From positions 248,001 through 312,000 of the forward strand of contig WIXG01000017.1 of assembly GCA_009869945.1 (NCBI GenBank): 64,000 nucleotides of DNA, given 5' to 3'. This document shows, piece by piece, positions 11,580 through 61,300 of this stretch. Under the pieces are notes generated by a model. It made no database searches and was not told the origin of the DNA. It saw only the letters and a list, made by a program, of their open reading frames with translations. The position numbers and the translations under genes were made by a program. This stretch comes from Mesaphorura yosii (Eukaryota > Arthropoda > Collembola > Poduromorpha > Tullbergiidae). Each line of letters opens with the position of its first letter. Positions within the stretch are counted from its first letter, which is position 1.

Positions 11580-12203
11580 CTAATTATTATTACTAAAGTA
11601 GTCTAGTATACTCTTCGGCATCTTGCTCAAGTCATAATAGTACTGGATCGCATCCACGTATCCGAGCCCCTTCAAATTCCCTGCACGCGGTATGATTCCT
11701 ATGCGTTTGAACCCAAACGAGTCCCACAGGCGGATGCTCGCCGTGTTCGACACGTACACGAGGTTAAAGAAGCTGGCTTGGTACCCCAAATCACGGGCCA
11801 CACGCAGGAACCGAGGGACCATGTACGTGGCTACGCCTTGTCCGCGAGCGGAGTCGTCGACGATGAAACCCGCATTGCAAATGTGAGAGCTGCGACCAGG
11901 AAAGTTTGGTTTGACGTAAAACGCTCCCAACACTTTGCCGTTGTCGGGTCCGGGCTCCGCATCGCGAACGACGAAGGCTTCATGAGTCAAGTAGTAAGAT
12001 TTGAATTCGTCGACTGAGTCCATTGTCTCCTGCGGGTACGTCTGGCCATCGTCCACAATCTTCTTGAAGATGCGATAGAGCTGGTCAACGTCTTCCGGTT
12101 TGTAGTGGTCGAACTCAATGGCTTTGCCCGACTTGAGCTTCCCAGTCTGTGGCAGGTACAGCAGCCGACCTTTCGATCCCGACGATTTTATGTTGTAAGC
12201 CAT
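11580..12203 (-). CDS. GNAT-family N-acetyltransferase, Mpr1-like
   Basis: This encodes 207 residues in one coding exon. The acetyl-CoA-binding core is visible: the motif A loop reads ARGQGVATY (R/Q-x-x-G-x-G/A type) near residues 121-129, followed by a FNLVYVSN strand and ASIRLWDSFGFKRIG, the typical C-terminal helix and strand. The FYVKPNFPGRSSHICN stretch recalls, from memory, the fungal Mpr1 type, which acetylates small cyclic imino acids; the substrate here is unknown. I chose the ATG at 12203 over the one at 12248. A good acceptor (CTTCACAG) ends at 12216, and a donor (GTAATC) starts at 12291, so a 76-bp intron interrupts the 5' UTR and removes the upstream ATG. AATAAA lies 16 bases past the stop. 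Likely soluble and cytosolic. Confidence 0.85.
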   Translation of the reverse strand: MAYNIKSSGSKGRLLYLPQTGKLKSGKAIEFDHYKPEDVDQLYRIFKKIVDDGQTYPQETMDSVDEFKSYYLTHEAFVVRDAEPGPDNGKVLGAFYVKPNFPGRSSHICNAGFIVDDSARGQGVATYMVPRFLRVARDLGYQASFFNLVYVSNTASIRLWDSFGFKRIGIIPRAGNLKGLGYVDAIQYYYDLSKMPKSILDYFSNNN

Positions 12204-12291
12204 TTGTCGTTCGATCTGTGAAGCACATGCATAACTTGAAATTGACACGTCGAGTCGTCAGCTGATTGGCGTAAATGATAAACGTGATTAC

Positions 12292-13238: not shown

Positions 13239-16200
13239 TCAATTGCCAGTCGCTGGATCACTATATCCTGTCCACGGTCGTCTTTGCTGTGGCTGTGGCA
13301 CGTCAACGCTTGCCCGTTCCCAGGCCTCGGCCACTGGGTTCTGGTTCTGGCCTGGCCAGTGTCCCCATCGTGTTGGCGCTGGCGATGGTGACATCAATGG
13401 TGGCGGCGCCTGACCTTGACCCCAGTTGAATCCACCATTGAAATTTACATTCAGCTGTGACACGATAGTCGTTGATCCTCGCTGATTCCAAGAGTGATGA
13501 GGATTCGGTGCCCATTGTTCGCTGCCATTCATGTTATTATTGAAATTGAAGCCATTGCCATTATCGTGTTGATAGTAGTTGTTGTACTGTAGGTTCGATG
13601 GCGGAGGCGGAGTTCGAAGTCGCAGCTGCCAAGAGCGTTGCTGCTGTTTCCTCAATCTTCTTCTCTCTTTCTTGGACAATTTTATCACGCCAGCTGATGA
13701 ATTTTGTCCTCTTTGTTGCGCCAAATTAGCATTAGTGTTATTCCAGTTATTGGCTGACGCCAATTTCATCTTTTTCTGAAATTCTGCTTGTTTTAAAGCT
13801 GCCTGCCTCTTACGTTGCTTCTTGGTTAATCTAGCTGACACGAGCGCGTGTGCGGATAGTGCCGATGCGGACGGAGCATTCGAAGGCGGTGCCTTGGGAG
13901 GAGGTTGGGGTTGACCTAAATAATGAACGAAACGAACAACGTCCACAAGGAATCATTTAAAGGAAATCATTATCAAGCAACATTTTCGACCTACTGTTTT
14001 GTTTCGATCCTGTTCTTGGAGTTGGAGCAGGAGCTGAGTTATTGTTGCTATCCTTTCGACTGCTGCCGCTTGGTCCTTGAAGCGCTGCTTGTGTGGCATT
14101 TCCAGACTGTCCATTACGAATACGATAGCTTTCCCATCCCGTGCCCCAGTCGTCATCGTTGGCCTCAGCAATTGTAATTAATTCCGGCTGCTGGCTTGCA
14201 GTAACAGCTGAAATGGAATCAGAGGCACTATGAGAAGTTTTTGTCCTTCCTGCACTTTCAAGCGTCTTCGGACGAGGATCCTTCTCCGTCAGCTTGGTGT
14301 TGGCATCTGAACCATTGTCTTTCTCATCCATGTTATCAGTCTCATCAGTATCAGCATCCAAATCTATTACATTTATTGCCTGTGGAGTGAAATAACAATT
14401 TGTACATTCGCTGGACACAATTCATTGCCTGAGGACGACCTGAACTGACATAACTTACTTCAATCGCGACAGTTTTAGATTTCTGGGTGTCCCATTCCCA
14501 CGTCCCATCCTCAAAAATTCTTACAAAACCACACTCTTTGTCCAAAATTCCCTTCTTGTCAGGAGCACGGAGAATGTTCTCGAAAATCTCGTCTCCCATG
14601 AGGTCACTGAAGCGGACTTCTGCCTCGCAAATTGGGCACTTCTCGAAGGAAAATCTTGTGCTGGCTTTCACCATTTGCAGGAATGCATCCAGTTCAAAGC
14701 AATGTATATGAGTGCAGGTTCGAAATCTCACAGGATGAGTCAGTCTTGATGTGGTGATTGGACATTTGATGCCAACTCGTAAGTACGTGAGACCAGTCAT
14801 TTCGCTGTCCTGTTTGATGATCTTCCGAACTAAAACAGTTCACGAACATTAATTATTACAACTTATATAACCGATTTCCGATTTGCAGATGCTCCTCACC
14901 TCGCCATAGTGTGATCTCCTTCTTAATTTTGTCCCTTTGCATAACTTCATTCATTATTTTCTCGTGTGTGCCACGGAGTATGTTTCGTTGAGGCACTTGT
15001 CTCTCCTTACTTGAGTTAACGTGTCCTGGCTGCTGCTGATAAGCAGAATTTCCAGAAGCAGCAGGCCGGCTAGAAGCAGGATTTCTTGTTGACCTTGTAT
15101 GGATTATGTCTGTACTCTTTTCAGCCCATTCCCATTCTCCATTTCCAAACACGCGTACCCAAGGTGCAGCCCGATGTTTAACTCCATTTCTGTCTGCTGA
15201 GTATAAAATGATGATGAACAACTCGTCCAATCTCAGATCTTCAAGTTCCCGAGGTACATGACAAAGTGGGCAATTCGCCCAGAGAGGACAATTAATAAGA
15301 TCAATTGATTCCAAGAATGGACCCAAGTCAAACGTTTGAGAGTGAAGACAAGTCGCAAATCGTGCTGGCCGAAATATTCTCTTTCCAGACACACAACAAA
15401 TGGTCTTCAGCACAAGAAAATTAAGACCATATTTCCTGACCTTTGCAGCAACTAAAATGAAAATTGATAGACGAACATAACATTAGAAGAAAAAAATGAA
15501 GCCAAAATAGTTACTACACGAACAATGGACAAGACAAATTTTACCTGTGCTCAGCGAGTTTTGCTTCGGAATTTTCTGTCTGCGAACAACTTGTTCCAAA
15601 AACTTCTCTTCAACTGTTGAGGCTGAAAGCTTGGCATCTGCAGAACTGTTATCCCAGACCCATCGTCCACTTGGAAATACGACGACAGAAGCTCCAGCTA
15701 CGTTGAAGGTATTGTTTGAGAAGTTTGAGTTGTTTGAGTCAGGAAGTTGCAAGATGGACGAAAGCAGCTCGTCGATCGCCAGATCTTCATATTTGACTGC
15801 TGCATTACAAATCGGGCACTTGTGTTTCTCAATGACGGAGGTTTTTATTGCTCGGAAGTAGGCTTCCAAATCAAAACATTCCACATGCGTACAAGTCTTG
15901 AATTTGGCTGGATAATTGATTCTGTTTCCGCTCAGTTTGCATATGACGCTGACCTTCACATGTCCTGGGAGTCGGCGTTCGACGATGTTATTGTAAACTG
16001 TAATATCAAAGCTATATTGTTTTTCGTGGTCAATTTGAATTTTATAGTATAATTATTGCTAGGCTTCACCAACCGTGGATCAATGTTGTCGTAGTGGTAA
16101 TTGCGGCCCGCTGACGAACTGCATTAACGCCTGGTTCGCTAGACTGTGACCAGTGTGGTACAAAGTTGACACGACTGTTCTTAGCGTTTGAATCCACGAC

Positions 16201-17545
16201 TTCGACGATCTCGCCCTCCTCGCCTCCCACTTGGTTAACATCCTCGACAGCCTCGACTGTATCGACAGGGCTCGAAACTTCATCTGAAGTCTCCGGGTTC
16301 ACATCCTCGACCGCCTCGACAGCATTAGAAACTTCTTCTGCACAGTCCGGAGTATCTTGTTCCCATTCCCAATCTCCATTTAAATGCATTCTAACAAACG
16401 ATGCATTCGGGTTCCGCCTCCCATTTGCATCAGAATTATTTAACAGGCTGTTAAGCACATTGTCGATCTTGAGATCTTCGAATTTGACTTTGGTTTCACA
16501 AAGGGGGCATTTGTCCAGTGAAAATTCCTGAGTAGTTGCTACTAAGTGCAGAAAATGACCCAGCTCGAAACACTCCACGTGTGCACAGGCAGAGTACCTA
16601 ACAGGTTGCACCAGTCGGGTCTTTGTTAATGGACAGATGACAGAAATTTTCATGTAGGTCTTTTTCGTGTTCTGGTAGTCTTCAATGATTGTGTCTTTGA
16701 CTGCAAACATATATTAGCACAATTAACGTAAGGGGCAGCCAGTAAGCGTTAAGACACAAAGCCTGACAAAGCGGAAAAATTACTTTGGCCCATCGTCACT
16801 TCTTTTGGAATGTGAGTTCGATTAATGACTTCCATTTCTGTGGTCGTATCGCCAACTACGTGAGCCTCTTCATTTGCATGATTTACCTCATCGATGATCG
16901 CTACCTTTTCTACCAAGCAAATCGAAACCACAAGGGTGGGAAGCGATTCTGGAATTCCCTCCTCATACGCCATGCAGCATTTGAGCCCAAGCACCACAGA
17001 ATTCCCTTTGAGGCGCTTCAGGACAATCCGCTTTATGTATCTTGGCTTGCCGATGGATTTCTTCATTTCAAGGTCGCACGACTTTCCTTCAATCTTCAGC
17101 ACAGCTTGTCCACTAAACTCTTGAAGGGGCCCGTCAGGAGTGGAGTACTGTATAACTTGAATAGCCATCTGTAAAGAAACAAACGGGGTCATAAAATTTG
17201 AGTCATCGCCACACTCACGTTGAATATCCACTAAGAAACAGGCTACAACGCACATCCCAGTCTGGATTCGACTGTAGAGATTCCACTTCCTCTGGCTCGA
17301 GGTTGAACTTAAATTTCGCCTTATGATTGTCCCACCAAATCTTCGGATCCGCTGAAAAATGAAGGAATAGCATCAGATTGCCGAATTCGAATGTGCTGAT
17401 TCCTTCACTTACTTAGAATTGTCGGAGGCACTAGTTGTCTGATAACTTCGTAAGACGACAGCTCTGGAATCAGCTCCATCTTCTCGAACAGCTTCCCACT
17501 GGAGTCCAACTCCTCTTCAGAACATTCTGAATCTGAATCCCCCAT
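13239..17545 (-). CDS. PIAS-like SUMO E3 ligase with PINIT and four tandem SP-RING domains
   Basis: My model has nine exons: 17413-17545, 17254-17351, 16784-17168, 16074-16700, 15545-15997, 14900-15451, 14459-14829, 13995-14379 and 13239-13915, giving 1226 residues. PIAS proteins transfer SUMO from UBC9. Residues about 30-165 resemble a PINIT domain (SSYEVIRQLVPPTIL, LKIEGKSCDL). Four SP-RING/MIZ modules follow, each with C-x-H, CPxC and a later WxW tail: near residues 222-290 (CAHVEC, KCPLC), 430-500 (CTHVEC, KCPIC), 580-650 (CLHSQT, NCPLC) and 766-840 (CTHIHC, KCPIC). PIAS proteins normally carry one. The third module has Thr for the Cys of C-x-H-x2-C. Residues about 874-885 (INVIDLDADTDE) form a SUMO-interacting motif with an acidic flank. 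The tail is Asn/Gln-rich and basic. No N-terminal SAP domain is seen. Less certain sites: donors GTGCGT at 17253 and GTTGGT at 16073, chosen because they keep the frame. Confidence 0.85.
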
Positions 17546-19171: not shown

Positions 19172-22100
19172 TTATCTACCTGCATACATTGGATTCTTGA
19201 AGGTCGATGTAGCTTGCTTGTAAATTGGATTTTCACCCTGCAACGTAAAGGAAGTGATTGAACTCTCAACGGCTCACATCGTGCGAATTTGATGCGTACC
19301 GCAATCTCTTACCGTATCCCACTTCGCATTCATTCGCTCTTTCTCAAATCTTGCGTACTCAGCACGGTCGTGAATGTGAGTCAGGAGTTTCCAGAGGAGT
19401 AAGAACACGAGACCAACCAGCACGATAGCGCCAACAACTCCAAAGATGATCCACATTATTGGTGGCTTTGGTGGACAGTCCTTCGTCATTTGCGCTCGAA
19501 CGTACAGTTCATTGTTTCGCGAAGTGTTGTATCCGTACACGTAGTAGAAACGGCAGTCATCCGTTTTGTCGGTTGCAGAGCACAAAATTTCCTCTTCAGC
19601 TTCGTCACCTTCAAAGAAAAAAGGTAATGTACAAGAGCACGAGCCACTTCGATTCGAACAGCAGCGGAACAAAATATTCGTCCAGCCACTTACTCGTTGC
19701 AATTCCAACTTTCTCAATTTTGTACTGTGATCTGTTGTCATCATAGACAAGGCCCAGCTCCAAGCATTTTCTGTGGCATTTCTCTTCATTTTCGGCAAAA
19801 TCTCCGGTCCCGTGCACGAAGCATTGAATGCAATCCTTCAAGTAGTCGCATTTGTCTGGGCAGCCCTGCAAAAAAAGAAAACTCGCATCAGCGTCAGAAG
19901 GCGAGTATTCGTATTGTCTCTTCAGTTGCTATCTACTTACTGGGCAACGATTGCAGTATTTGCCAGAGTATCTTTCTGTGCCATTGGTATTGCAAATACA
20001 TCGTCCACATTCGCATTTTCCGTGCCCGTCGCAGATTTGGTTAGAATTTGGCGCTCTGCAAAGCATCTGTTGGGAGTAGAAAAGCAAAGCAAATATGAAA
20101 ACTGAGCGCATGGCTCATGAAGGCAAAGTCGTACTGTAAATGTAAACTGTGGTTTACCGGGTCGACAGGGCATTGACAAGCCAGTCCCGTCCATTCCGGT
20201 TCACAAATGCATTTTCCGCACACACATTTTCCGTGGTCTTCGCCAGAGCACAGCAGCGTATTTTCTCGTTCACAACTGAAGTTGTCACACTGACAGAACG
20301 GTCCACTGATAACCTCTCGGTCGTCATCTCTCCTGTTACAATGGCACTGCCCGCAGATGCATTGACCGCTGTAAAAATGTGATTCATGAATTCGGAGCCT
20401 GCTTTACTGCTTTCGAGATAATATTAACCGCTTGACGTACCGGTTTGAACAAACAATTTCAGTAACGTTATCTGGCCGACATGCCCGATCGTCATCAATT
20501 TGGTTTCCGGATGTCGTGTTGCATTCACATGTTCTTCCGAAATAATTATCGTCGCACTCGCAAATGCCACAGACTTCAGTTCCGTGATACTCGCAATGTT
20601 GGCTGAAGCGAACCTGAAAACCGAGTACAAAAATGCAATTAAAACTACAGGAGTCAAACTGTTTCACGTGGAGGCATTGCATTGGAAGTAGCTTACCACA
20701 GCTTCCGGCCTTTCGCAGTCGCAACGGCACAGCATTTCCAAGTGGACCTCTAACCTTTCCTTCAAGCCAATCGGATAGATCTTGAAGACTTGCTCCCACT
20801 CATTTGGATTGGTTGGGCACTTGACCAACTCAATTTTGACCAAGAATCTGTCGTACCGAATTTGAATTGACTGGGCATTTAGCAGCATTCATTCAATATT
20901 ATTTAGGGAAAATATGGAGCACTTACTCAACAATGCTTCCCACTTTCAGGTCGTTGCATTTGTTTCTTTCTATCATATCGTTGTCCAGACACTTGGAAAA
21001 GTATGAGACCCGGATGTATTCACTCGACGTGTCTTTCAGTTCCACAGTGGACGTGATTTTCTAAGCAGAGCACATAAGTAAAGTTGTTACGCGATTTGTA
21101 ACACGAAATACAGCAACGCTAACGTAACCTTCGTAAACTTACTTCGTATTCTTCTCGCACAAGTTCGACCACATTGGAGGAATTTGCAGCCAATTCGCCG
21201 CATGACGAACCCTGAATGCTCTTTGTGAGTTTCTGGTAAATGTTTACTTGCTCGGCAGTCACAGCGAAGATCATGTGAATGTTCTTCTCTTTAACTTTGG
21301 AATTTATCTGTGCCACCGAAGGATAGTCTTGGAGAGTGGAGTGCGTGTATTCTCCGCGTGTGTCCATGTGGCAGTGTCCGTCATTTGGTTTCACAATTCC
21401 ACCCAACTATAAGAAGGCAACGCAGGTGACTAATTGCTACTACCCATCAAATCAGCAGATCAGATTGCAACTGTTACCTTTCCATCTCCAGCATAATGAA
21501 AAGAAGCGTCCGTGGAGAATACAAGCAGGCGTCTCGCCTCTTCCCTCCAACCTGGACAAAAGCGTTTAGAAATTAAGTTCAAGGGGCGAACTGAAAACTG
21601 TTTCAGCTTTGTCAATAAAAATAAAGTTTGCGAATATTACCAATGGAGTCGCACACAATCGCCTGCATAACAGCGTCAAATCCGCCTTCTGGTGCGTCCA
21701 GATTTCCGGAAACTCTTGCTCTCTCAACTTCACCCTAAATTAAGATGGCGGTTAGCACCAGGAAATGGGAAGGTTGGAGCCAAAAGATTACTAGCTATTA
21801 TTTCAAGAAAATGTTCAAAAAAACTGGTCCAGCTTTTATTTAAGCTATTTTGTGTTGTTGCTTCAAAAAATTTCTCAAAAATTTTAATTCACAAAATCTG
21901 ATTGAAAAGTCCAGTCATCAAAAATCAATCGTTTCTGGATGGTCAGTAATTAAATTGTCCCGTATTCAGCTCATTAGAACTTCCATAGAAGGGAAGACTT
22001 TTGGTTAGTAAAAAATAAAAATGTGTTAGGTCAGATTAAAAATTTAGAAAATGGGAGGAAGGGTGAAAGGTGAAAATGTGCAATCACAAAAATAACAAGA

Positions 22101-31700: not shown

Positions 31701-34700
31701 ATTCCCATTCCCAAATTTCGTGCAACCTTGGACTCCTACTCTATTCTCTTTTATCGATCCCGGTTTCTAGTCTCTAGCACTAGTTTTCTAGCATTCTAGC
31801 CCACGCCAGGGTTCAAGCACTGGCTTAGCAAAGCCAAAGCAATTGGAACAAGGAACTCCTTTTATTAGGCTACAATTTTTATTAATTTTATACTAATATT
31901 AAATCTACAATAAAGAATTTCTTGTGTCATGCACAATCCCAATTTAGAGCTTTAGAGCAGCAATCTCGAATGAATGAGTAAATTCTCAATTTAATTGAGG
32001 TCGCCAATACAATAAATTTCCGCTAGCGAAAACGGCTGAGACTGCCGATAAAGAAATTAATGCGGCTGTTGTATGATTTTATATTTCTTAATTGCAGAAT
32101 GAGGAATCCTACGTTTGCATCTACTCACACCGCTTTGGTGACCGCATTTTGTTCCATCATGAAGGAGGAGTTGACATCGGTGACGTGGATGCTAAAGCCC
32201 TTGTTTTGGAAGTCCCCGTTGATTACACTCCATCCTTGAATGAGATTAAGGACAAATTGCTAACTCATGTCGCGGCGGACAAGAAAGAGTATGTTTACAC
32301 GGCTTCACGGCTTACATGCACGACCTGATTAGCCGCCAATGAATTAACTTAATACTTTATACAGGCTGATTGCGAAATTCATCGACACACTCTACAAAGC
32401 CTACGTCGAACTCTTCTTCACGTACCTGGAAATAAATCCACTTGTCATCACAGGTGGGAAGGTTCATATCCTGGATTTGGCTGCTAAACTCGATGCAACT
32501 GCTGACTTTATCTGCCGCAGCAAGTGGGGCGAGGTCGAGTACCCAAGCCCCTTCGGAAGAGATGCGTACCCCGAAGAGGCGTACATTGCGGATTTGGATG
32601 CTAAATCTGGTGCCAGTCTTAAGGTGCGCTGGCTTCTTAAAATGAAAATCACAATTAGAAAGATTGAAGAGTCGAATTTTGAGAATCTATGCCTGTATTC
32701 GGTTTTAGCTGACTATTTTGAATCCAACTGGCCGTATTTGGACAATGGTCGCCGGTGGAGGCGCGTCTGTCATTTACAGCGATACGATCTGCGAGTTGGG
32801 AGGTGCAAGCGAGTTGGCCAACTACGGTGAATATTCAGGCGCTCCATCTGAACAACAAACTTACGACTACGCCAAGACACTCTTATCGCTCATGACTAAG
32901 GAGAAGCACCCAGACGGCAAAGTCCTGATTATCGGTGGAAGTATTGCTAATTTCACAAACGTCGCGGCTACATTCAAGGGAATCGTCACAGCACTTCGTG
33001 AATTCCAGTCTCGATTGATCGAGTACAAAATCTCAATCTTCGTGCGAAGAGCTGGTCCCAATTACCAGGAAGGTCTGCGCCATATTCGAGAAATTGGCGC
33101 GAGTTTGGGCATTCCACTCCATGTCTTCGGTCCTGAAACTCACATGACTGCAATCGTTGGGATGGCACTTGAGAAGCGGCCCATTTCCTACGCCACTGAC
33201 GGAAGTGCCACAACAGCCAATTTTTTGCTTCCGGGATCGCAAGATAATGCGGTAAGTTAACTTTTTGTGTGGATTTGTCTTTAACACGGTGCTACGGTGT
33301 TGGGCCTTTCTCGTCTTGGCATTGTTGGTTTTTCTGTCTGTCGTTTGTAACGTAGAAAAATAGAGTAATTTGCTTGGGAAAATCGGAAATGTGTCTTTAG
33401 AGCTGTCGCTTGTCTGTAAACTGCAACTTCAACATGTTTCATTTCATTGGCTCTTTCTCTCCGTCAGTTTAACCATTCTCATTTTAACGTCGGGTCTGCG
33501 TTTGAGGTTTCTTACAAGAGAGCCATTCTTCCAACTTGCAGAAAAGTCCAGCAGCGTCAAGAAAAGGCTCAGAATATACTCAAAAGGCCGATGTTGATCA
33601 GGGCGACGGTGGAATAAACGAAGTCGCGAGCAGCACAGTGAAGCCACTTTTCACCCGGCACACCAAAGCCATTGTTTGGGGAATGCAAACCCGTGCAGTG
33701 CAGGGAATGCTGGACTTTGACTTTGTGTGCAGGCGTTCTGAACCATCCGTAAGTCTTGAGACTGAATAACTTCAAAGAATTTGTCAATTCTAATTGTTTT
33801 TTTATCACTTCAGGTGGTTGCACTCGTATATCCTTTCACTGGTGACCACCGTCAAAAGTAATTAATCTTTTTACTTTAGGTTTACTTAATCTTTTTACGT
33901 AATCTTTTTACTTTCTAGGTTTTACTGGGGTCATAAAGAGATTTTGGTTCCAGTGTACAAGAACATGTCCGACGCGTTCAAGAAACATTCCGATGCTGAC
34001 GTGCTGGTGAACTTTGCGTCGTTGAGATCCGCCTACGACTCAACAATGGACGCTCTGGACTGCCCACAAATCCGTACAATTGCAATCATCGCTGAAGGCA
34101 TTCCAGAAAACATGACGCGAAAGATCATCAAGAAGGCTCTGCAGAAGAGTGTTGCCATAATTGGCCCTGCAACTGTCGGTGGTATTAAACCGGGCTGCTT
34201 CAAGATTGGAAACACTGGTAAGTTGTAATTTCTGTTTATTGAAGTTACCTTAGGTGCACTCTTGGCTTAGCAAGGCGATGGCTGAACGTGACCAATAGTC
34301 TGGTTCCGTGTCCCTTTCTGGAAACAGGTAGCGCACTCGAAGTAATCGGTACCAGGAACTCGCCTATAATGCGTGTTAATTGTAGCCACTTTAGGAGACT
34401 TCTCTTCTTCATCTTCTTCAACGTCTTGTGAATCAAATCTTTGTCTAATTTCGGCCAGTGCGTCTAAAATTACATCAGAAGTGATAGTTTCGTTTCAAAA
34501 GATTGGCTGAGAGGATGTGGAAATGCAAATCCCAAAGCCCGCTTCTGGTTTAACTTACCTGATTGCTTCTTTCCACTTTCACTGAAAACATATGAGATTT
34601 TGACAGGTTTTTGGATTTTTTTCTGCGCTTGCACGTCGTGTACTTTTCCCTCCTTATTTTTCGCGAAGTGGAATTTGAATTTAATCATGCCATGTCATTG

Positions 34701-38487: not shown

Positions 38488-41400
38488 ATGAAGGTAGGTA
38501 TCAGACTGTTGTGGTTTCATTGCATTGTTTCATATTGGTCTTGAAAGAGTATCAATCTTACCATCTTCGTTGCAGGTTCAAGATATCAGGTCATTCTTCA
38601 AATCTCCGAGCAATAGCAAAGACGACACTTCTAGTGGCTCACCTTCGAACGTAGTCCAGGTGCCGAACAAGTTAAGCAGAGGACGAAGACCGCCACCAAC
38701 TGAGGCTTCTACAGGTGCCGGCTCATCTTCCTCGTCTCCTGCAACAGACAAGCCTAACAAAAAGGGGAAGAAAACGTCTCTACCTAATGCTGAAGATGAT
38801 AGCGAGGATCCGGTGCCGAAGACCACGAAGAAATCGAAAACTAATGATGAAGCGCATTCGTCGAAATCAAGCAAGGGAAAATCTGTTGATAAAGATAAAG
38901 AAATGTCAAAGGTAAAGGTGAGAGAAGAAGCAGACGTTGACGATAATGAAAGCCCAATACCAAAAGCTGCAGCAAAGAAAGTAAAATCAGAAAAAGATAA
39001 AAAGCCTGTTGTTGCGAAATTGCCGTCCACACCAGAAAAGAGAGAAAAGAAGCAGGATAAAGATAAAGCCGTTAAGTACGACACTCCTTCACCACGCAGG
39101 TCTTCGAGGCTGCAAACACCTGACTCGTCGCAGAAGCAACACGGTCGGGACCAAGTAACATCGGCATCTGCGAAGCCAGATACCAAGAAGATTGAAAAAG
39201 GTAAACGCAAGCTGAATTTGGATGATGATGACGAAGACCCGATTCCAAAGTCTGCAAAGACGAAAGTACCGATAAAGAAAGCTCGTCCACTGATCGTGTC
39301 GGATTCGGACAGTGATCAAGAAGTCTTACACGCGACTCCGCCACCGAAAAAGAACCCAGGGTCACCAAAGAAAAATGTGAGCTCTTCAGAATTTAAACAA
39401 CCGAAGCCAAGCGAAAAGAAAGTCGAACCGCTGAAGAAGACCGCCCATTCCGAAGCTGCGTCGAAGGCAAGCTCTAGCCACTCAAGCGGCAGCGGCAAGA
39501 AAGGCCGTCCATCCGACTCGAAGCCCTCTGCTAAGAGCTCGCCTGAGAGAAAGTCCAAGCCGCCAGTGGATGTGAAGACTCCTGAAGAGAAGATAGCGGC
39601 ACAGAAGTCTAATTATTTCAAGATGTTATCTCGTGGCGGGCCGAAGCATTTGGGATCCAAGGAGGTGCCGGTCGGGGCCGAAGGCTGCCTGAGTGGTCTG
39701 ACTTTCGTACAGACAGGAGTGCTTGACTCGTTCGAACATGATGATATCAAGAACATTATTGAGAAATATGGCGGCAGAATGACGAGTGCAGTCAGCCGCA
39801 AGACGAACTATTTGCTAATGGGAGACGAGCCTGGCGAAACAAAGAAGAAGAAGGTATTAACAAACAATAATTCATCGTAGACAGATCTTAATTAATCTCG
39901 TGATTGGTTTTTGATTTCTTTTGTGCTGCTTAGGCGAAAGATCTGGGAGTTCCAATCATAGATGAAGATGGTTTCCTAGATATGATCAGAAGATCAAATC
40001 CTGACGGTCAGTCTCAGTCACAAACTGTATTTGGTATTGACGATAACGAGAATGAGGTGGAAGAGGAAGTGAAGATGGAGATTGAGAAGATCCCAAGCCC
40101 AGCCAAGAAGGCAGAATCACCCAAAGAGAAGGCGAAGGAAAGGTAGGTTTTTTTAGTAGTGAAGTTTGGGGTGTCCTTTCACTCTTTCCTCATTTTCTCT
40201 TCCATTCTCATTCTTGTCTCCATTGTATTACAGGGAGGACTCGTCGAAATCTAAAAGCAAGTCGCCGGACAAGAAATTGAGTTCAAAGGTTGAGGTCAAG
40301 CAAGAGATCAAGACCGAGTCTCAGGAATCTTCTTCGTCAAGCCTGGCGACAGCCAGCTCCTCGGTCACAAGCTTTCCTTCGGTATCATCATCGGAGCCGA
40401 AATTCTTTGAGGAGACTTGGGTGGAGAAGTATCGTCCGAAAACTATGAAGAACCTCGTTGGTCAAAGTAGCGACAGGTCTAACGCAAACAAACTGTTGAA
40501 ATGGTTGAAGAACTGGTTTCTGTATCACGGAAAGTCTGATGACAAAACCAAGACAAGCTGGCCCGGTTTAAAGGACCCGGATGGCAAAACATTCAAGGCT
40601 GCCTTACTTTCTGGTCCTCCGGGAATCGGCAAGACTACGATGGCTCACCTCGTGTGCAAGGAAGTCGGTCTTGATTACATCGAACTGAATGCGTCTGATA
40701 CACGTAACAAGAAAGGATTGCACGAGATCCTGTCCGATTTACTTTCGTCGAAATCCCTGAATGATGTGCAGGCAAAAAGCTACGAAATCAGCAGCATGGC
40801 TCGGAGACACGTTTTGATCATGGACGAAGTGGATGGAATGTCGGGCAACGAAGACCGTGGCGGGATACAAGAGCTCATCGCACTCATCAAAACATCCCGA
40901 ATCCCAATCATTTGCATTTGCAACGATCGCAACCACCAAAAAATACGTTCTTTAGCAAACCACTGTTTTGACCTGCGATGCATCAAGCCGACGATTGAAC
41001 AGCTGAAAGGATTCATTCAATCCCTTTGCTTCAAGGAGAAGATGAAGGTTCCCTACGACTCCATCATGAAATTGGTGAAGAGCACGGACTTTGATATCCG
41101 CCAAATCATAAACCAGCTGCAGTTGCTAAAGGAGACTGATCCCGATCATCACACCGTGTACAACCCCAAGAAGGATATTGTCCTAGGCCCTTGGGACGTT
41201 GTTCGTAAAGTATTCTCGGCGTCGGAGCATGTCGGAATGTCTCTGCAGGATAAGAATAACCTCTTCTTCCAGGATTACAGTTTCGGCCCACTGTTTGTCC
41301 AGGAAAACTATACCAAATGGGAGCCAGTCAAAGCTCGGTAAATAAATCATTCATATCATTTGGTTTCTAGCGTCGAATTTCGTATTTCACCTTTGATTAA

Positions 41401-42374
41401 TGCCATTTTCCAGTGGAAACAAGTACAAGACGCTGGATTTGGTTCGTGATGCAGCCGAATCAATTGCTACTGGTGATCTCGTCGATAATTTACTTCGCCG
41501 AACGAACAACTGGTCGCTCCTCCCGACTCAGGCCATATTCGCCAGTGTTATGCCCGGTGAAATCATGGAAGGGCGTCTTTGCGACAGCATTGAGTTCCCG
41601 AGATGGCTGGGTAAAAATTCAAACCGCAACAAAGTAAGCAGGCTACTCCAGCAGCTTCACACCCACGTGCACCTTCGAGTATCTGGCAGCCTCGAAGCAT
41701 TGAACCTTGACTACTTGCCGTACCTCCGTCGTTCGATTTTCAACCCTCTCGTCGCTGGTGACGTCGACGAATCTGCACAAGTGATGCAGGATTACGATTT
41801 GCTGCGGGAAGATTTGGACAACATAAACGAGCTGACACTCTGGCCTGGAATGAGGAACCCGCTGGAGAGAGTCGACACAAAGACTAAGGCTGCGTTCACA
41901 AGACAAGTGAACAAAGAAGTCCTGCCTTATTCTGTTGTGAAAGTTGCAAAGGGCAGGGGAAAAGGAAAAGGCGGTGATGACGAGGAGCTAGAAGGACTGG
42001 AAGGAGAAGACGCTGAAACTGCTGCTGCCGAAGAGGAGGAAGAAGAGACTGTAGAAACTGATGCGATGATAAAAAAGAAATCCAAGAAATCCAAAGCATC
42101 CTCAGCACCAAGTACGAGCAAGTCAAAGGCCACGTCAAGCAAATCCGGCGCATCGGAGAAGAAACCTAAGGCCAAACCATCGAAGAGCAAATCACGCGAC
42201 GAGGACGATGAGGACCTGGACGAGTACGAGTCTGATTTCATCGACGACGACGATGACGACGATGATGATGACCTCAAAGTCTGGAAAAAGTCGTCGTCGA
42301 ACAAAAAGAGAAAGGCGGAAGACAGCCGTAAGCCGTCCAGCAGCAAATCGAAGAAAAGCCGCTTCGTCTCGTAA
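38488..42374 (+). CDS. RFC1: Replication factor C subunit 1 (large clamp-loader subunit)
   Basis: Exons: 38488-38493, 38576-39853, 39934-40142, 40234-41337 and 41414-42374; 1185 residues. The RFC complex opens PCNA and loads it onto primed DNA in the nucleus. The first coding exon is only ATG AAG. Exon 2 opens with QDIRSFF, a PCNA-interacting (PIP) box. A long Lys/Ser/Asp-rich linker follows, then a BRCT domain that binds DNA (GCLSGLTFVQTGVLDSFEH ... NYLLMGDEPGE). Exon 4 carries the AAA+ module: KYRPKTMKNLVGQ, Walker A SGPPGIGKTTM, Walker B VLIMDEVDGM. Exon 5 carries the collar region (LVDNLLRRTNNWSLLPTQA) and ends in an acidic Asp run and a Lys/Ser-rich nuclear tail. AATAAA is at 42501-42506. 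Confidence 0.95.
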
Positions 42375-46981: not shown

Positions 46982-49900
46982 TTAGAGATCAGGATTGGGT
47001 AGCACGTACTCCTCGTCAGAGTCCCTGTCTGCGTCGCGACTGTTCTGAAACGTCTTGTTGAGCCTTAATCTACTTGAGCCTGGGCCCGCGCCTGCTCCTG
47101 CCCCTCTGCCTATGTCCTGGCCTCTGCTTCTGCCACCATCACGACCATCGTACATGAACTCATCATCAAATTCGCTCAGTAATTCGTCCTCCTCCGTAGA
47201 AATGAGTTCGTTAATCGCTCTATGGGAAACAGGCCAAATAATTTACCATATGTCTGAAGAATTTTAATGAGTCTTACTGTAATAAAATTGCTTCGCGTGA
47301 GACGCCATTCCATTCTGTTGGCCCAGGATGTTGTATTTTGTAGGTCAACAGATTGTCCAATTCTTTTCTCAGTCTCTGTACAGATTAGGCGCGATTTCTT
47401 AAGTAACCGTTAAATTACTGGAATTGTAACGGGGCGCTTACATCGATAATGTTGTAAACAGATCGCTCGCATAGGAATCGAATCGTACCATCCACGCCCA
47501 CGCTTCCGTACCCGAGAGCTTCGATGAAGTCAAGCTGACCACCGAAAAAGATAAGCGGAAAAGGCCCCACCATCGTCGTGTCATGTAGATAGATTGCGGT
47601 GCTTTTCATTTTCATGTGATAAATCAGGAACGGAGACGCAAAAGAGGTTACTCCAGAGTTTACGGATTTCGGATGAATCTTCACTTTTCCGTCGTCCTCG
47701 GTGAAGGCAGCAACTTCAGTAAAGTGCCTTCCGTGGGACTTCACTCTGACTTTGGCCACATTTGGATACAATCCTGTGACGGAAATACAGAATGTGAAAA
47801 TAGTCTCACATTATCAACAACAGTTGTCAGGCAAAACTAACCTGAGCAAATGATTCCTTTGACCAAACCCATGCTTCCTGAATTGACATTGACGGATCGA
47901 TCCTTATAATTTAACGTCCTCAAGAATCCACTTTCCTTGAGATACTCCGCAAATTGAGTCTTCATATTTTCCAACTGAAACAACGTGCCCGTTGAAAGGC
48001 GATTCTCTTGGCAATATGACCGGTGTACATTGGAGTTCCTTGCTTCTTCGTAGCCCTCCATTGCCTTAATCTGCCACAAATTAAAGAAATACATTTTTCA
48101 ACACTTGCCGCCACAAGAAGGTGAAGTCAATGTATCTTACCAGAGCAATGTGATCACTTTTGTATGGTCCAGAAAATTCCTTCCGTATCTCATCTACAAT
48201 CTTTTCTTCTCCGAGTGGAACGTAGAATGGATCCCTGAAGCTTAGCGAAGCAGCAACTGATAAAATTGGGTCGCAGCACGAAAATATTGCGCCCATCAAA
48301 ATCATCCTTCCACTCTGAGGATCCATTGGCAGTTGAGCTGCAAAAACGAAGAGCCGAATCGAGTCAAGGTCCATTTTCAAAGCAAGAGCTAGAATTGAGA
48401 AGGAATCTTACCTAAATGGAATCCCAAAGGAGTTAGGTTCTCGTGCTCATCCAACGCGTGAAGTTGTCGGAGTCTTTTCAGTGCTAATTGGACTGATTCC
48501 GGTCGCGGTGGGTCCATTAGCCGGTTAAAGAATGGCGCGGCTTCCCCCAGCTTCAATACTTTAATGCGCAGAATTTCTTCCTGCAGCCCTTTACGAAGGA
48601 CTTCCGGTTTCTTGTAATCTTCCAGACTGTCTTCTCTGCGTCGTGTGTACAAATGGTAACATACTCCAGGTTGAGTTCGACCAGCACGTCCTCTTCGTTG
48701 TCTCGCGTTTGCAATGCTGACCCACTCTGGTCCCAATGTCTCAATATTGTTCTTAACATCGAAGTTGGTCATCTTTATCTTGCCAGAATCTGTCGAAGAA
48801 ACGAAATGGCATACTGAGTGCCGAATTGTAACCAAACGACATAAGTCACAGTCACTTACCAATGACGTAATAAATATCATCAATTGTGATCGACGTCTCC
48901 GCGATGTTCGTGGCCAAAACTATTTTACGAGTCCCAGGCGGTGGGCGATGGAAAACCTCCTTCTGATTCGCAGTTGGCATCATTGAATGAACTGGGATGA
49001 TTTGGTGGCAATGTGCAGGAAATCTGCCGCTCTCAGTCAGCATTCGATGCAGCTTGGATATTTCGCCCCATCCGGGGAGGAACACAAGAATGGATCTCTC
49101 GGTTGCGCCCCGTTCCGACTTGCAAATGTATTCAATTAAGGCATAGATCAAGTCTAAATTAATTTCTTCCGTTTCCGGAAACGACAGCTGTTGAAGTGTG
49201 TCTTTAGAGTAACGGCTCTTGGAACGGAGTTCTCGAACGTACGGTTGAATAAATCTTTCAAACTCGCGTTGAAGGAACGATGCTGTCGCCTTGTCGGTGC
49301 CAAAGTTGACTTTTCTGCGTTCGTATCGAAAGTTTGTCTTTTCTATTGCGTCTTCCAGGTAAAATTCTTCAACTGGGTGAGTGAATCCAGGAATATGGAA
49401 CACTGGGCAGTCGTTAAAGTAGATCGCAAATTGACGAGCGTTAATCGTTGCACTCATGAGGATGACTTTCATATCGGGCCTGGAGGTAATCAGTTCCTTT
49501 ACAATTGCCAGGAGAAAATCGTTCAGCACGTCTCGTTCGTGAACCTCATCGATGACGAGATGAGAAACACGGTTTAAGTAGGGGTCCGACTTTAAATGTT
49601 GCAGCAAGATCCCAGTCGTGCAGAAGATTATTGTTCCTCCAGATCGTCCTTTCGGTAATTTGTTCTCCAGACGAATACTGTACCCAATCGATTTTCCACC
49701 AGCCACTTCGCCGCGTTCGTCCGCGACTCTCTCGGCTACGCTTATTGCGGATATCCTTCTTGGTTGAGTACATACAATATTGCAAACTGATCCGTTGAGG
49801 TCAGAAATCCATCGATCGAGAATATATTGAGGTATTTGTGTCGTTTTTCCTGAGCCAGTTTCACCCTCAATAACAACGACCTAAGATCAACAACAAAATA

Positions 49901-53202: not shown

Positions 53203-56038
53203 ATGGAACGTGTAACTAGGCTCTCTTTCTGGCTGTGTTTGGTTACCGTTTTGGTATCACTCACAAATTCAGAACGAGTTATCGAATTCAATACACAAGG
53301 TACGTACGCCTAATCCGCTCCGCACGCGCACGCTGCGAGATTTGAGATTTTGATGGTTTCCTACCGATTTCCTAATCATGACACTTCTTTTCTTTCCCAC
53401 AGATTTCACTTGCCTGGATCGTCCCAATGGCATCTATCCAAATCCGAGCGACTGCTCGACATTCTACAAGTGCGTTTCAGAGCTAGAGTACTTGTACGAT
53501 TGTCCAGTCCCCACATTGTTCGATGGGAAGCTCCTAGTCTGTGTGCACCCAGAAGACGCCCAGTGTTTCACTGGAGGAGATCCCGTTCCAGAGCCCGAGC
53601 CTGAGCCCGAGCCCGAGCCTGAGCCCGAGCCTGAGCCCGAGCCAGAACCTGAACCTGAGCCAGAACCTGAACCTGAGCCAGAACCTGAACCTGAGCCAGA
53701 ACCTGAACCCGAGCCCGAGCCCGAGCCCGAACCAGAACCCGAAAGACCAACTACAACTCGCCGGCCACGACCAACCACAACTCGCAGGCCGAGACCGACA
53801 ACAACTCAACGACCAAGACCAACGACAACCACGACTGAGGCGCCCATCGCCGACTTCAGTTGTGACGGAAGGGAAGAGGGAAAATACCCCAACCCAGTCG
53901 ACTGCGGATCGTTCTACTACTGCGTGGACGGACACCCAGGTCCATACCTGGAGCACTGCGCTGCGGGAGGAATTGTCTACAATCCGGAGACTGAACAGTG
54001 CGACTGGCCAGAAAATGTTCCAGGCTGCGGAGGAGACACAGAACCAGAGCCTGAGCCAGAGCCAGAGCCAGAGCCCGAGCCAGAGCCAGAGCCTGAGCCA
54101 GAACCAGAGCCAGAACCTACAACGACTCGTCGACCAAGACCAACGACAACTCGTCGTCCACGACCAACGACGACTCGCAGACCACGCCCAACAACCACAA
54201 CCGAGGAACCAACAACCACGACGGAAGTTGCAACAACAACTCGCAGACCGCGCCCAACGACGACTCGCAGACCGCGCCCAACAACCACGACGGAAGCACC
54301 AGGTGAGGGTGACTTTGACTGCGGTGGAAAGCCTTCCGGAATTTATCCAAACCCAGTCGACTGCCACACCTTCTACTACTGTGTGGACGGCCATCCAGAT
54401 CCGTATTTGACTGACTGCCCAGACGACCTCGTCTTCAACCCGGAGCTTAGCGTGTGTGACTGGCCAGAAAATGTTCCAGGCTGCGGTGGAACCCCACCAA
54501 CCACGGCAAGACCAACACGCCCACCACGCCCAACAACTACAGCACGCCCAACTCGTCCACCAACCACGGCGAGACCAACTCGTCCTCCAACGACAAGACC
54601 ACCACGTCCAACAAGACCAACTCGTCCACCAACTCGCCCTCCAACCACAGCAAGGCCGACACACCCAACTCGTCCACCAACGACAAGGCCACCGCGTCCA
54701 ACTCGCCCGACAAGACCAACTACTGAAGCTCCCGAAGAGCCAGAGGAGCCAACAACAGAGGCACCAGTAGAGGAGACAGAAGCACCGCCAGAGGAGACTG
54801 AAGCGCCACCAGAGGAAACCGAAGCACCACCAGAGGAGACTGAAGCGCCACCAGAGGAAACCGAAGCACCACCAGAGGAAACCGAAGCACCACCAGAGGA
54901 AACCGAAGCACCACCAGAGGAGACTGAGGCTCCTGAGGAACCAACTGAACGACCAACCACAACTAAACGTCCACGCCCGACACTCCCGACTTTCCCACCA
55001 TGGCCGACTTTCCCGACGTTCCCTCCATGGCCGACTCTCCCAACTCGTCCACCCAAGCCAACGACGACCGAGGCGACCACCACAACTGAAGAGGCAACCA
55101 CGACTAAACGCCCACGACCAACGTTCCCGACTTTCCCACCATGGCCAACTTTCCCGACGTTCCCTCCATGGCCGACTCTCCCAACTCGTCCACCCAGGCC
55201 AACGACGACCGAGGCGACCACCACAACTGAGGAGGCAACAACCACTCGCCGCCCCCGCCCGACAACAACACGTCGTCCACGCCCAAGCACGACCACCACC
55301 ACAACTGAGGCTCCATCAAAACCATTCGACTGCGATGGCAAGCCAGCGGGAGAGTACCCCAACCCAACTGACTGTACCTCCTTCTACTACTGCGTTGATG
55401 GACATCCGGGCCCAATCTTGACTCCTTGCCCAGCCGGTCTCTTCTTCAACCCCGACTTGCTCGTCTGCGATTGGCCACAAAACGTGCCATCCTGCAATAA
55501 CCCGACTACCACACAGGCGCCGACCACCACCACCCAGGCACCACCGCAGAAGTTCAACTGCGACGACAAACCAGAAGGTCTTTACCCGAACCCGCTCAGC
55601 TGCTTCTCGTTCTACTACTGCGTAGATGGACACGAAAACCCGTACTTGTTTGACTGCCCCGCGGACGGAGCCACGGTTTACAACCCTGAGACGCAACAGT
55701 GTGACTGGCCAGAGAATGTTCCAGGCTGCGGCGCCCCAGCACCAAGCACCAGCCGACCAACTCGTCCACCAAGGCCAACTCGTCCACCAAGACCAACTCG
55801 CCCCTCAACCACCACTCAGGCTCCACCAGAGGAGTTCTCTTGCAACGGGCGCCCAGAAGGCCAGTACCCCAACCCGGCCGACTGCACGACGTTCTACTAC
55901 TGCGTGGACGGACACCCCGCCCCCTACCTGGAGAACTGCGCGGCTGAAGGCGCGACCTTCTACAATCCAGACACCTACCGCTGCGACTACCCACAGAACG
56001 TTCCATCCTGCGGCGAGAGCGCCAAAACTCGTCTTTAA
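53203..56038 (+). CDS. Large mucin-like peritrophin with six chitin-binding domains
   Basis: Exons 53203-53299 and 53403-56038 encode 910 residues. Exon 1 is a signal peptide ([17 protein letters not shown]), joined in phase 1. Six type-2 chitin-binding (peritrophin-A) domains, each with the six-Cys pattern and YPNPxDCxxFYYC, lie near residues 34-87, 182-240, 335-393, 672-730, 749-808 and 843-903. The first is the most divergent. Between them are Pro-rich linkers: Glu-Pro dipeptide runs, TTTRRPRP repeats (Thr-rich, likely O-glycosylated), PPEETEA repeats and PTFPPWP modules. Such proteins cross-link chitin in the gut peritrophic matrix or cuticle. The acidic and Thr-rich linkers suggest a hydrated, mucin-like spacer. 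AATAAA is at 56212-56217. Very long antisense frames here are by-products of the repeats. Confidence 0.93.
53591..53740 (+). repeat. Glu-Pro coding hexanucleotide repeat, first block
   Basis: Twenty-five GAR-CCN units (GAGCCC, GAGCCT, GAACCT and so on) encode an uninterrupted (Glu-Pro) run. A second block of 13 units lies at 54041-54118. Third-base variation among units shows it is not a fresh slippage product. Confidence 0.9.
54785..54931 (+). repeat. Seven 21-bp tandem units coding PPEETEA
   Basis: Seven 21-base units encode PPEETEA and differ only at silent positions such as ACT/ACC and GCG/GCA. It is an in-frame minisatellite in the peritrophin linker and probably varies in copy number between individuals. 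Confidence 0.85.
54956..55237 (+). repeat. Tandem duplication of a 141-bp linker module
   Basis: Two adjacent 47-residue modules (54956-55096 and 55097-55237) start TTTKRPRPT, continue with PTFPPWP units and end [10 protein letters not shown]. They differ at a few positions, for example Leu/Phe after PRPT and Lys/Arg near the end. A recent in-frame duplication. Confidence 0.85.
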
Positions 56039-58329: not shown

Positions 58330-61300
58330 ATGTCTGATAGCGGCGAAGATGAGCGCGCGAGCGATAGGGACGAGGAGGACGAGGTAAGTGGCATAGACTG
58401 GGTTCTGGTGTCTGAAAACCGCCAATCCTAATCCGGCGTTGTTAATGGCAGGAGTACACCTCCGAATCCTCGGAAGAGGAACGTCGTCCAGCCAAGAAGA
58501 AGAAGCGGAGTGGAGTCGGTGATTTCATCTTAGAAGAAGCTGAGGTTGATGATGATATTGAGTCGGAGGAGGAAGAGGAAGAAGGATTTCGAGATTATGT
58601 TGCGCATGATGCCGGAGAAGATGGACCGACTGCCAGAGAAATTGAATCCGGTCTGCGAAGACATACAATGTGGGAGTAAGTTGACTGCAATGAACATTGT
58701 GGCGTTCAAAACCTAGCCCCATTCTTCCAAGATATATATATGTGATTCGTTTTTCTGTCTAGTTCCCAGAAAGAAGAAGAGCTCGAAGAGTACCTTCGCA
58801 AGAAGTACGCAGATGATTCAGTGGCAGCACGGCACTTTGGTGACGGCAATGAAGATATGTCCGATGAAATCACACAGCAGACGCTGCTGCCTGGAATTAA
58901 GTAAATGGCAATAACCCATTTCCCAAACATCGTCAGTTTATCCTCGAATGTTTTTCTCAGAGATCCTTCGCTATGGATGGTCAAGTGTAGACTTGGCGAA
59001 GAAAAATCGACAGTCCTTCAGTTGATGAGAAAATGTATTGCCTTCAGTAATAACAACGATCCTCTACAAATCAAGTCGGTCATCGCACCAGAAGGAATTA
59101 AAGGATACATTTACATTGAGGCGTTTAAACAGACTCACGTGAAGCAGGTTGGTGATGTGATATTCGATCGCGTCAAGTGCCGACGCCCGACCGCGATCTA
59201 ACGCAATAAATTCATGAATCCATGACATGATGCAGGCAATTGAAGGAATTGGAAGCCTAAGAATGGGAGTCTACAAGCAGCAAATGGTTCCCATCACGGA
59301 GATGACCGATGTTTTAAGGGTTGCGAAGGAGCAAACTGGTTTGAAACCTAAGCAGTGGGTCAGATTGAAGAGAGGCATCTTCAAAGATGACATTGCCCAA
59401 GTGGACTACGTCGATTTGGCACAAAACCAATGTCATTTGAAGTTACTGCCACGAATCGATTACACTCGTATGCGTGGAGCACTCAGAGATTCTAAAGCGG
59501 TAAGCACGTACCACGTCAATGAGAAGGAACCGTCAAAGCATCAAACAAGTTGCTAATACCTAGGACGCGGAGAACAAGCGGAAGAAGAAACGCCGACCAC
59601 CAGCAAAGCCCTTCGATCCCGAGGCTATCAAACTCATCGGCGGCGATATTACTTCAGATGGCGACTTTTCGTTGTTCGAGGGAAATCGCTATTCTCACAA
59701 AGGATTTCTCTACAAAACTTTCCCAATCAATGCGCTGTTGACTGACGGAGTAACGCCAACTTTGGCGGAGTTGGAGAAATTCGGAGAAGTGCCGGTTGAA
59801 GGTTTGGAATTGGACGTGCAAGCGAAGGCAGATGAACGCCATAATTTTGCTACTGGAGACAATGTACAAGTGTGTGAAGGAGAGTTGACGAATCTGGAGG
59901 GAAAGGTTCTCGCCATCGACGGAAATAAAATTACTATTCAGCCGAAGCATGAAGATCTCAAGGTGACTGACACTGACTTTAATTTTCGGTTCCAAAATAT
60001 CGCGTGCTAACTTTACTTCTCTCTTGGGCTCGGGCAGGATCCACTGGATTTTCAAGCTTCTGAGCTGCGCAAGGCATTTCGTCAAGGCGATCATGTTCGT
60101 GTCATTGGAGGAAAGTACGAGGGCGATACTGGGCTCATTGTCAGAGTTCAAGAGCATTGTGTGTTTCTGTTTTCTGATTTAACCATGCACGAGTTGAAGG
60201 TCCTGCCCAAGGACTTGCAGCTCTGCTCAGACATGGCAAGTGGGGTTGACTCCATGGGACACTTTCAGTGGGGAGACCTTGTTCAATTAGAGTAAGTACC
60301 CTTTTAGAAAAGTAGCAATTCAGCAGTCAGTAGATGTAGACACATTTGTCATTTCCTTGTTTAGTTCACAGACTGTGGGCGTCATTGTCAGACTAGAGAA
60401 AGAATTATTTCACGTGCTGTCAATGCACGATAAAGTTGTGACCGTGAAGCCCCAAGCAATTCAGCCGAAGAAGGAGTCACGTTACGTTATGGGAATTGAC
60501 TCAAAGGGAAACACAATTCAGAAGAAAGACATTGTATGTATTGTTGATGGTCCTTCGCCTGTCAGACAAGGAGAAGTTCGTCACATTTACAGGAATTTCC
60601 TGTTCCTGTACTCAAGAATGTGTTTGGAAAATGGTGGTATATTCGTGTCAAAGTCCAAGTATGTTGAGTTGGCTGGTGGAAACCTCAACAAGCCTCTCTC
60701 TGCTGGGAACAGCATCACTGCTGGATTTATGAGCCCGAGGCTCGCGTCTCCGATGCACCCAAGTTCTGGCTCCGGTGGCGGTGGAGGCGTAGGAACTCCT
60801 GGCGGAAGTACAGGATGTGAGTTTTATTAAATTTTAAGCGTTCTATCACTTTGATTCTAACGTTAATTTTACTCTGTTCTTCTCCAGCTCAAAATATTCT
60901 CTCAGCGACAAGACAACAGTCTTTCGCGTCACATGGAAGAAATCGCAGCCTGATTGGACAAACGATTAAAATTACGCAAGGCCATTACAAAGGAAGCATT
61001 GGCATCGTCAAAGATGCTACTGAAACAACGGCGAGAGTTGAGCTTCATTCCAGTTGTCAAACCATCAGTGTCGACACGTCGAGAATTCAAGTTATTGGCG
61101 GACCCAGTGGGAAAACTGGAAATATTACAACCTACTCACGAACTCCGAGCTACAACGCCAATGCAACACCAATGTACAGGAACGTTGATGGATCGGGTGG
61201 CAGAACGCCGATGCAAGATGGTAATTCTTTATTTTCTTTTAACTGCCGCTGTACGTTGACTTACCGGTTTGGTTTGTGTTTTCGTTTTCGCCAGGCTCAC

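Follow-up and report, generated by a model that had tools for sequence, protein, structure and literature searches.

PIAS proteins, a family that includes metazoan PIAS1-4 and Drosophila Su(var)2-10, ordinarily resemble the Siz proteins in having a single catalytic core, with one SP-RING per chain, in which the C-x-H and C-x-x-C residues hold a single zinc. The SP-RING is described, in the available text of PMC10830130, as having zinc-binding cysteines and a histidine together with separate stabiliser residues. In the excerpt of PMC8064691, the SP-CTD consists of two regions surrounding the SP-RING, and the edge of its sheet binds SUMO; the corresponding part of PMC12751080 reports that the SP-RING binds SUMO and UBC9, with the donor SUMO in the closed form, and that a downstream SUMO-interacting motif (SIM) likely holds a second SUMO behind the E2. 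Here, we analysed a 64,000-nucleotide window of the genome of the collembolan Mesaphorura yosii (C17:248001-312000, where C17 is contig WIXG01000017.1 of an assembly of 93,006,257 bases in 1127 contigs). On its minus strand, at 13239..17545, lies a predicted gene with four SP-RING modules in a row. In the open-licence literature, phrase searches for proteins with multiple or tandem SP-RING or MIZ domains yielded one unrelated paper, and no counterpart appeared among the papers listed by wider searches; eukaryote proteomes lay outside this search.

A predicted gene with four tandem SP-RING modules

The Pfam zf-MIZ profile (PF02891, cut-off 33.5 bits) was used in a six-frame search of the host genome at E<=0.001. 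Six places were found, namely four exons of the window gene, one exon on contig C468 and one on C92. Rings 1 to 4 scored 48.5, 53.3, 35.7 and 57.4 bits, all above the cut-off; when the separate open frames were analysed with hmmscan, the scores were 45.6, 50.1, 32.9 and 55.6 bits, which leaves ring 3 0.6 bit below it. The four tandem SP-RINGs of the original prediction were thus recovered by the genome search in every ring exon, and the outcome of fewer than three scoring modules was not found. SP-RING 1 (exon 4, 16492..16647) gave yeast Siz2 as its best match in the PDB (2.1e-10), as did SP-RING 2 (exon 5, 15801..15953; 5.3e-10), which has CK in place of the usual CP. SP-RING 3 (exon 6, 15255..15407), the most divergent, matched Siz1 at 2.5e-5 and carries CC where CP is usual and T in place of the second C of C-x-H-x-x-C, while SP-RING 4 (exon 7, 14621..14773), with the top score of the four, matched PIAS2 at 1e-11 and, when extended by its pre-ring helix, Siz1 at 2.8e-12. 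Each ring exon searched alone returned Siz/PIAS-type SUMO ligases as first matches (4/4), and a profile of all four modules matched PIAS2 at 8.1e-16. In addition, a W-x-W tail resembling an SP-CTD strand follows each ring, at 16357..16377 (GDWEWEQ), 15648..15668 (GRWVWDN), 15120..15140 (GEWEWAE) and 14486..14506 (GTWEWDT), all on the minus strand like the rings. Twenty alignment columns are invariant across the four modules, including C-x-H, CPxC and G-x-W-x-W, so that the signature claimed for each module held in all four.

The gene model starts with an ATG that begins at 17545 and finishes with a stop codon that ends at 13239, in agreement with the span originally given for it, and comprises nine exons with a frame of 1226 codons plus stop (1226 amino acids). 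GT-AG borders are present at 8/8 introns, which are 61-93 nucleotides long, and the exon frames lack internal stops, the single stop of exon 9 being the final one. A PINIT-like region spans exons 1-3 (17545-17413, 17351-17254 and 17168-16784); exons 4-7 (16700-16074, 15997-15545, 15451-14900 and 14829-14459) hold SP-RINGs 1, 2, 3 and 4 in order; and exon 8 (14379-13995), which precedes exon 9 (13915-13239), holds a SIM-type motif. The exon 2/3 junction, 17254/17168, was the best of the in-frame site pairs scored (sum 8.0; next pair 3.8; scores from approximate consensus frequencies); it reads ...NPDWD/MAIQVIQY... (slash at the join) and gives an intron 2 of 85 nucleotides. It replaced the junction of a first gene model (1229 amino acids), in which exons 2 and 3 were joined at weak sites, and it bettered two further junctions that were tried, one with an X at the join. 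The Pfam PINIT score does not favour the adopted junction (17.5-18.1 bits, compared with 18.9-19.5 for the first model). Some scans, including hmmscan on the protein cut to 1004 amino acids, used the first model, in which the rings are identical. Codon usage supports the assigned frame in exons 1, 3, 4, 5 and 7 and not in exons 2, 6, 8 and 9; with 1175 training codons this test is weak and was not taken as support.

We considered whether such a structure could have arisen from errors in the assembly or the prediction. A stronger exon 2 donor, at 17219, had to be dropped because it is incompatible in frame with the strong exon 3 acceptor, as might be expected of an assembly artefact or a pseudogene. 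However, a well-scoring pair of in-frame sites is available for intron 2, the frame is open throughout, and the modules are only 31-39% identical to one another in protein, too little for a single copy multiplied by misassembly; we regard an artefact or pseudogene as highly improbable. Equally improbable is a misjoined prediction that fuses four separate one-ring genes, since the introns joining the ring exons are only 70-93 nucleotides long, have GT-AG borders and share phase 1. They leave scant space for promoters or 3' ends, and the sole PINIT-like region found precedes ring 1 while the SIM exon follows ring 4, which is the order of parts in PIAS. From its sequence, the four-SP-RING locus is a real, PIAS-derived predicted gene model.

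Some parts outside the rings also resemble those of PIAS. The PINIT-like region (17052..17452, minus strand; residues 32-116) reached 17.5-18.1 bits with Pfam PINIT, whose cut-off is 27, so that the PINIT-like N-terminus that had been described is right but weak. Of 2000 shuffles, 1 did as well as its best local alignment with the host's own PIAS; with the N-terminus of the first gene model, the corresponding counts were 2/1000 for local and 0/1000 for end-to-end alignment. A genome-wide PINIT search, which reads exon by exon, found the canonical PIAS only and did not pick up the window gene. Behind ring 4, as expected from the acidic SIM noted there before, a motif scan found NVIDLDAD early in exon 8 (14350..14373, minus strand), with an acidic stretch behind it; on motif grounds, NVIDLDADTDETD in this exon is a SIM-type motif with an acidic flank downstream of the last SP-RING. 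The same kind of scan placed a SIM-like EIVEVVD in the acidic linker behind ring 1 (16192..16212, minus strand), and a basic cluster, KKERRRLRK (13647..13673, minus strand), is a possible nuclear localisation signal. SAP matched nine places genome-wide at E<=0.1, of which one lies within the host's own PIAS and none on contig C17, consistent with the missing SAP domain reported earlier; a SAP that has diverged, or a 5' exon that escaped prediction, is possible. Taken together, the four SP-RINGs, the PINIT-like N-terminus and the SIM-type motif support the PIAS-like identity first proposed, and the window gene almost certainly encodes a PIAS-type protein with four modules.

Origin of the repeated unit

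To place the window gene, we compared it with the related genes of the same genome. A canonical PIAS gene on C468 carries, on one strand, SAP (24.6 bits), PINIT (89.8 bits) and one ring (80.9 bits), followed by acidic SIM-type stretches read by eye from the translation. It shares with the window gene an SP-RING with C-x-H and CPxC, a PINIT-like region before it and a SIM-type exon after it. In contrast, the window gene has four modules, if spliced as modelled, instead of one, together with no SAP found, the W-x-W tails, no Trp two residues before CPxC and two to three extra residues between C-x-H and CPxC (22-23 residues in 4/4 modules, compared with 20 in the host's own PIAS and ZMIZ, PIAS3, Siz1 and Siz2). 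Yeast Siz1 and Siz2 are among the best PDB sequence matches, including for the pre-ring helix of module 4; however, they have one module, and over aligned columns rings 1-3 are 28-32% and ring 4 is 25-29% identical to them. The gene on C92 was named ZMIZ/Tonalli-like from its ring (zf-MIZ, 82.1 bits) and layout, and its ring sequence is similar to those of the window gene. NSE2/MMS21 proteins belong to the same SP-RING superfamily, and the zf-Nse profile is matched by modules 1, 2 and 4 as well, its cut-off being passed by module 4, but zf-MIZ outscores zf-Nse for all four ring exons and a separate NSE2-like zf-Nse gene is present on contig C208. Two other places, C162:115756-115911 and C24:221960-222088, also exceed the zf-Nse cut-off, as do one C17 ring and the C92 ring; the place on C162, interrupted by a single stop, could be a broken copy or another RING type.

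The modules are closer to one another than to PIAS or ZMIZ. Module 4 matched the other modules at 1.7e-28, 7.8e-20 and 3.3e-16, compared with 4.2e-11 for PIAS and 5.3e-8 for ZMIZ, and module 2 matched PIAS at 1.3e-6 and ZMIZ at 8.3e-5 (the PIAS/ZMIZ comparison of E-values covers these two modules). A tree grouped the four modules at 86/100, a value not past both tool thresholds, with agreement from 88% of 200 bootstrap trees. Of the four, rings 1 and 4 are the most alike (39% identity), and their branches are the shortest. The range of 31-39% indicates that the duplication is not recent. No relative of the modules was found in the viral contigs that were scanned.

Intron positions and phases gave a further basis for comparison. 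In the window gene, a phase 1 intron precedes each of the four ring exons, exons 4, 5 and 6 being phase 1 at both start and end, and phase 0 follows the last; in the host's own PIAS, a phase 1 intron likewise precedes the ring, whose exon has a phase 0 end and is followed by a SIM-type exon. The window gene thus has the same intron position and phases around the ring as this PIAS. When the bars were placed in the alignment from our gene models, the pre-module intron fell in one column for the four modules and the host's own PIAS (TMGQ/IKD, TLIH/VYN, SLST/VAA, TLWR/VRK and TRGM/IKE). The C92 gene, our one yardstick for the ZMIZ intron layout, has one intron immediately after CPxC and a second, judged by eye, directly before the ring, neither of which occurs in the window gene. 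Because ring sequence alone does not choose, it is the weight given to introns that leads us to descent from PIAS over ZMIZ.

The stretch before each ring, reaching back into the end of the preceding exon, was also informative. In modules 1, 3 and 4, this pre-ring helix matched Siz1 with z values of 5.0, 6.0 and 13.0 (0/500 shuffles as good in each case), and the three helices matched among themselves with z values of 4.6-6.1 (equalled by no more than 1 in 500 shuffles); the module 1 helix also matched the host's own PIAS well (1/500 shuffles). Behind the ring, the W-x-W strand occupies the place of the Gly-x-Trp stretch of PIAS3. Since a pre-ring helix and an SP-CTD-like strand flank the ring, the repeated unit of helix, intron, ring and W-x-W tail looks like a tandem duplication of the PIAS catalytic core, and the duplicated part was probably not the ring alone.

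As the best explanation of the locus as a whole, we therefore favour, with some but not strong confidence, a PIAS paralogue with a tandemly duplicated catalytic core, set between a diverged PINIT-like domain and a SIM, that acts as a multivalent SUMO E3, in a genome that keeps an ordinary PIAS. Several observations weigh against it. The ring-sequence tree puts ZMIZ, not PIAS, nearest to the four rings, joining the C92 gene to them weakly (61/80), and the window gene's PINIT match lies under the Pfam cut-off. The module 2 helix is weak, with as good a match from 35/500 shuffles for Siz1 and from 22/500, 100/500 and 458/500 for modules 4, 1 and 3, and the helices of modules 2, 3 and 4 match the host's own PIAS weakly (302, 294 and 41 of 500 shuffles as good). 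PIAS, ZMIZ and Siz have a Trp two residues ahead of CPxC; this Trp is missing in rings 1, 2 and 4 and shifted by one place in ring 3. Furthermore, ring 3 has lost C and P at conserved positions, its branch in the tree is longer than those of the other three, and the codon usage of its exon does not support the assigned frame. AlphaFold runs on the module alignments gave poor models for modules 3 and 4 (predicted local distance difference test, pLDDT, 54.0 and 57.7); Foldseek searches with these two models returned no match at E<=0.001, a result that is uninformative given the models and was not used.

Neighbouring genes in the window

The ligase gene is flanked on the same strand by a GNAT acetyltransferase open frame just downstream (11580-12257, minus) and, upstream, by the end of an integrin beta subunit gene covering the cytoplasmic domain (19277-19837, minus). 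Housekeeping genes identified with Pfam include ATP-citrate lyase (32348-33257, plus), RFC1 (41397-42371, plus), a DEAD/DEAH helicase (48855-49880, minus), SPT5 (60291-61483, plus) and a diphthamide synthesis protein (62474-63666, minus). An open frame of 894 codons at 53354-56035 (plus) contains six peritrophin-A chitin-binding stretches and long Thr/Pro-rich repeats, and its product is perhaps a mucin-like peritrophic or cuticle protein. Inside the tandem repeats of this gene, ARAGORN called a tRNA-Pro (53579-53670, minus); a search with Rfam at gathering scores found no RNA family in the window, and the call is probably false. Chitin_bind_4, a family typical of arthropod cuticle, has 66 matching places in the host genome.

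A possible multivalent SUMO ligase

On the observed anatomy, homology, and intron positions and phases, we base a proposed mechanism that draws on Siz1 and a review. Ligase activity, and the processivity and scaffold roles first suggested for several rings on one chain, are likewise putative. Each intact module would hold Ubc9~SUMO in the closed form, like the single module of Siz1, so that one molecule could engage several charged E2s. The PINIT-like domain would pick the substrate, and the SIMs would retain either the product or the SUMO located behind the E2, leading to clustered or poly-SUMO conjugates. With four cores and SIM-like motifs after rings 1 and 4, several E2s might be served on one substrate or on one growing chain. 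SIMs have been assigned such roles in other ligases: in the excerpts consulted, the SIMs of plant PIAL1/2 promote SUMO chain formation (PMC8064691), and two SIMs on one chain of human ZNF451 hold the donor SUMO and the E2-bound SUMO (PMC12751080). The likeness of these proteins to the window gene product is functional only, as what is repeated or paired in them is the SIM and not the SP-RING. To our knowledge, neither PIAL1/2 nor ZNF451 has repeated SP-RINGs. By analogy with Siz1, we judge the chances of the multivalent mechanism to be evenly balanced.

The number of working cores bears directly on this mechanism. We propose that ring 4 is catalytic and that rings 1 and 2 probably are; ring 3 is probably weak, or a module for SUMO or E2 docking, and is the likeliest of the four to be inactive. 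A serious alternative, somewhat short of an even chance, is that catalysis is confined to one or two modules, ring 4 and perhaps ring 1, the rest being docking or scaffold parts or in decay. The substitutions, lowest Pfam score and longest branch of ring 3 fit this alternative, as do the CK of ring 2 and the top mutual identity and shortest branches of rings 1 and 4. However, none of the four modules has lost C-x-H, CPxC or the W-x-W strand, and their exons are free of stops when read in the assigned frame. In addition, the atypical SP-RING of Tetrahymena Ema2, in which a histidine replaces the first zinc cysteine and some stabilisers are likely missing, still binds Ubc9 according to the portion of PMC10830130 used here.

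To explore whether the ring exons could be skipped, all 16 subsets of exons 4-7 were joined to the remaining exons of the first gene model, which has the same exons 4-9 and entering phase as the adopted one. The eight subsets with exon 7 stayed in frame to the normal stop, and the eight without it did not. Exons 4-6 can therefore be skipped in any combination and exon 7 cannot, which would make isoforms of one to four rings possible; splicing that picks a single ring and excludes the other three was rejected, since exon 7, and with it ring 4, must stay for the frame. It is possible, though unlikely, that exons 4-6 are alternative cassettes, of which zero to three are spliced in to tune ligase valency or the choice of module. 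Their phase 1 at both ends and the eight in-frame subsets suit this idea, as does the intron between pre-ring helix and ring in each module, by which skipping leaves whole modules; yet tandem duplication alone also gives equal phase, and the obligatory ring 4 bars a strict one-ring choice. We hold as still more doubtful the further proposal that valency is encoded by tandem frame-neutral exons, with four SP-RING/SP-CTD cores binding several Ubc9~SUMO and splicing of exons 4-6 determining how many cores, from one to four, are active. If true, the gene would have an inbuilt means of adjusting poly-SUMO or multi-site SUMO output, and perhaps SUMO condensates as well.

The way in which a SUMO E3 builds chains, or modifies many sites per encounter, is hard to test, partly because PIAS and Siz proteins have one core. 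A natural chain of four cores, each with a ring and a CTD-like strand and at least three of the four with a recognisable pre-ring helix, would allow whole exons to be added or removed as a direct test of whether valency gives processivity. Tandem duplication of a phase 1 exon unit, as predicted at this locus, would be a clean route for a ligase to gain cores.

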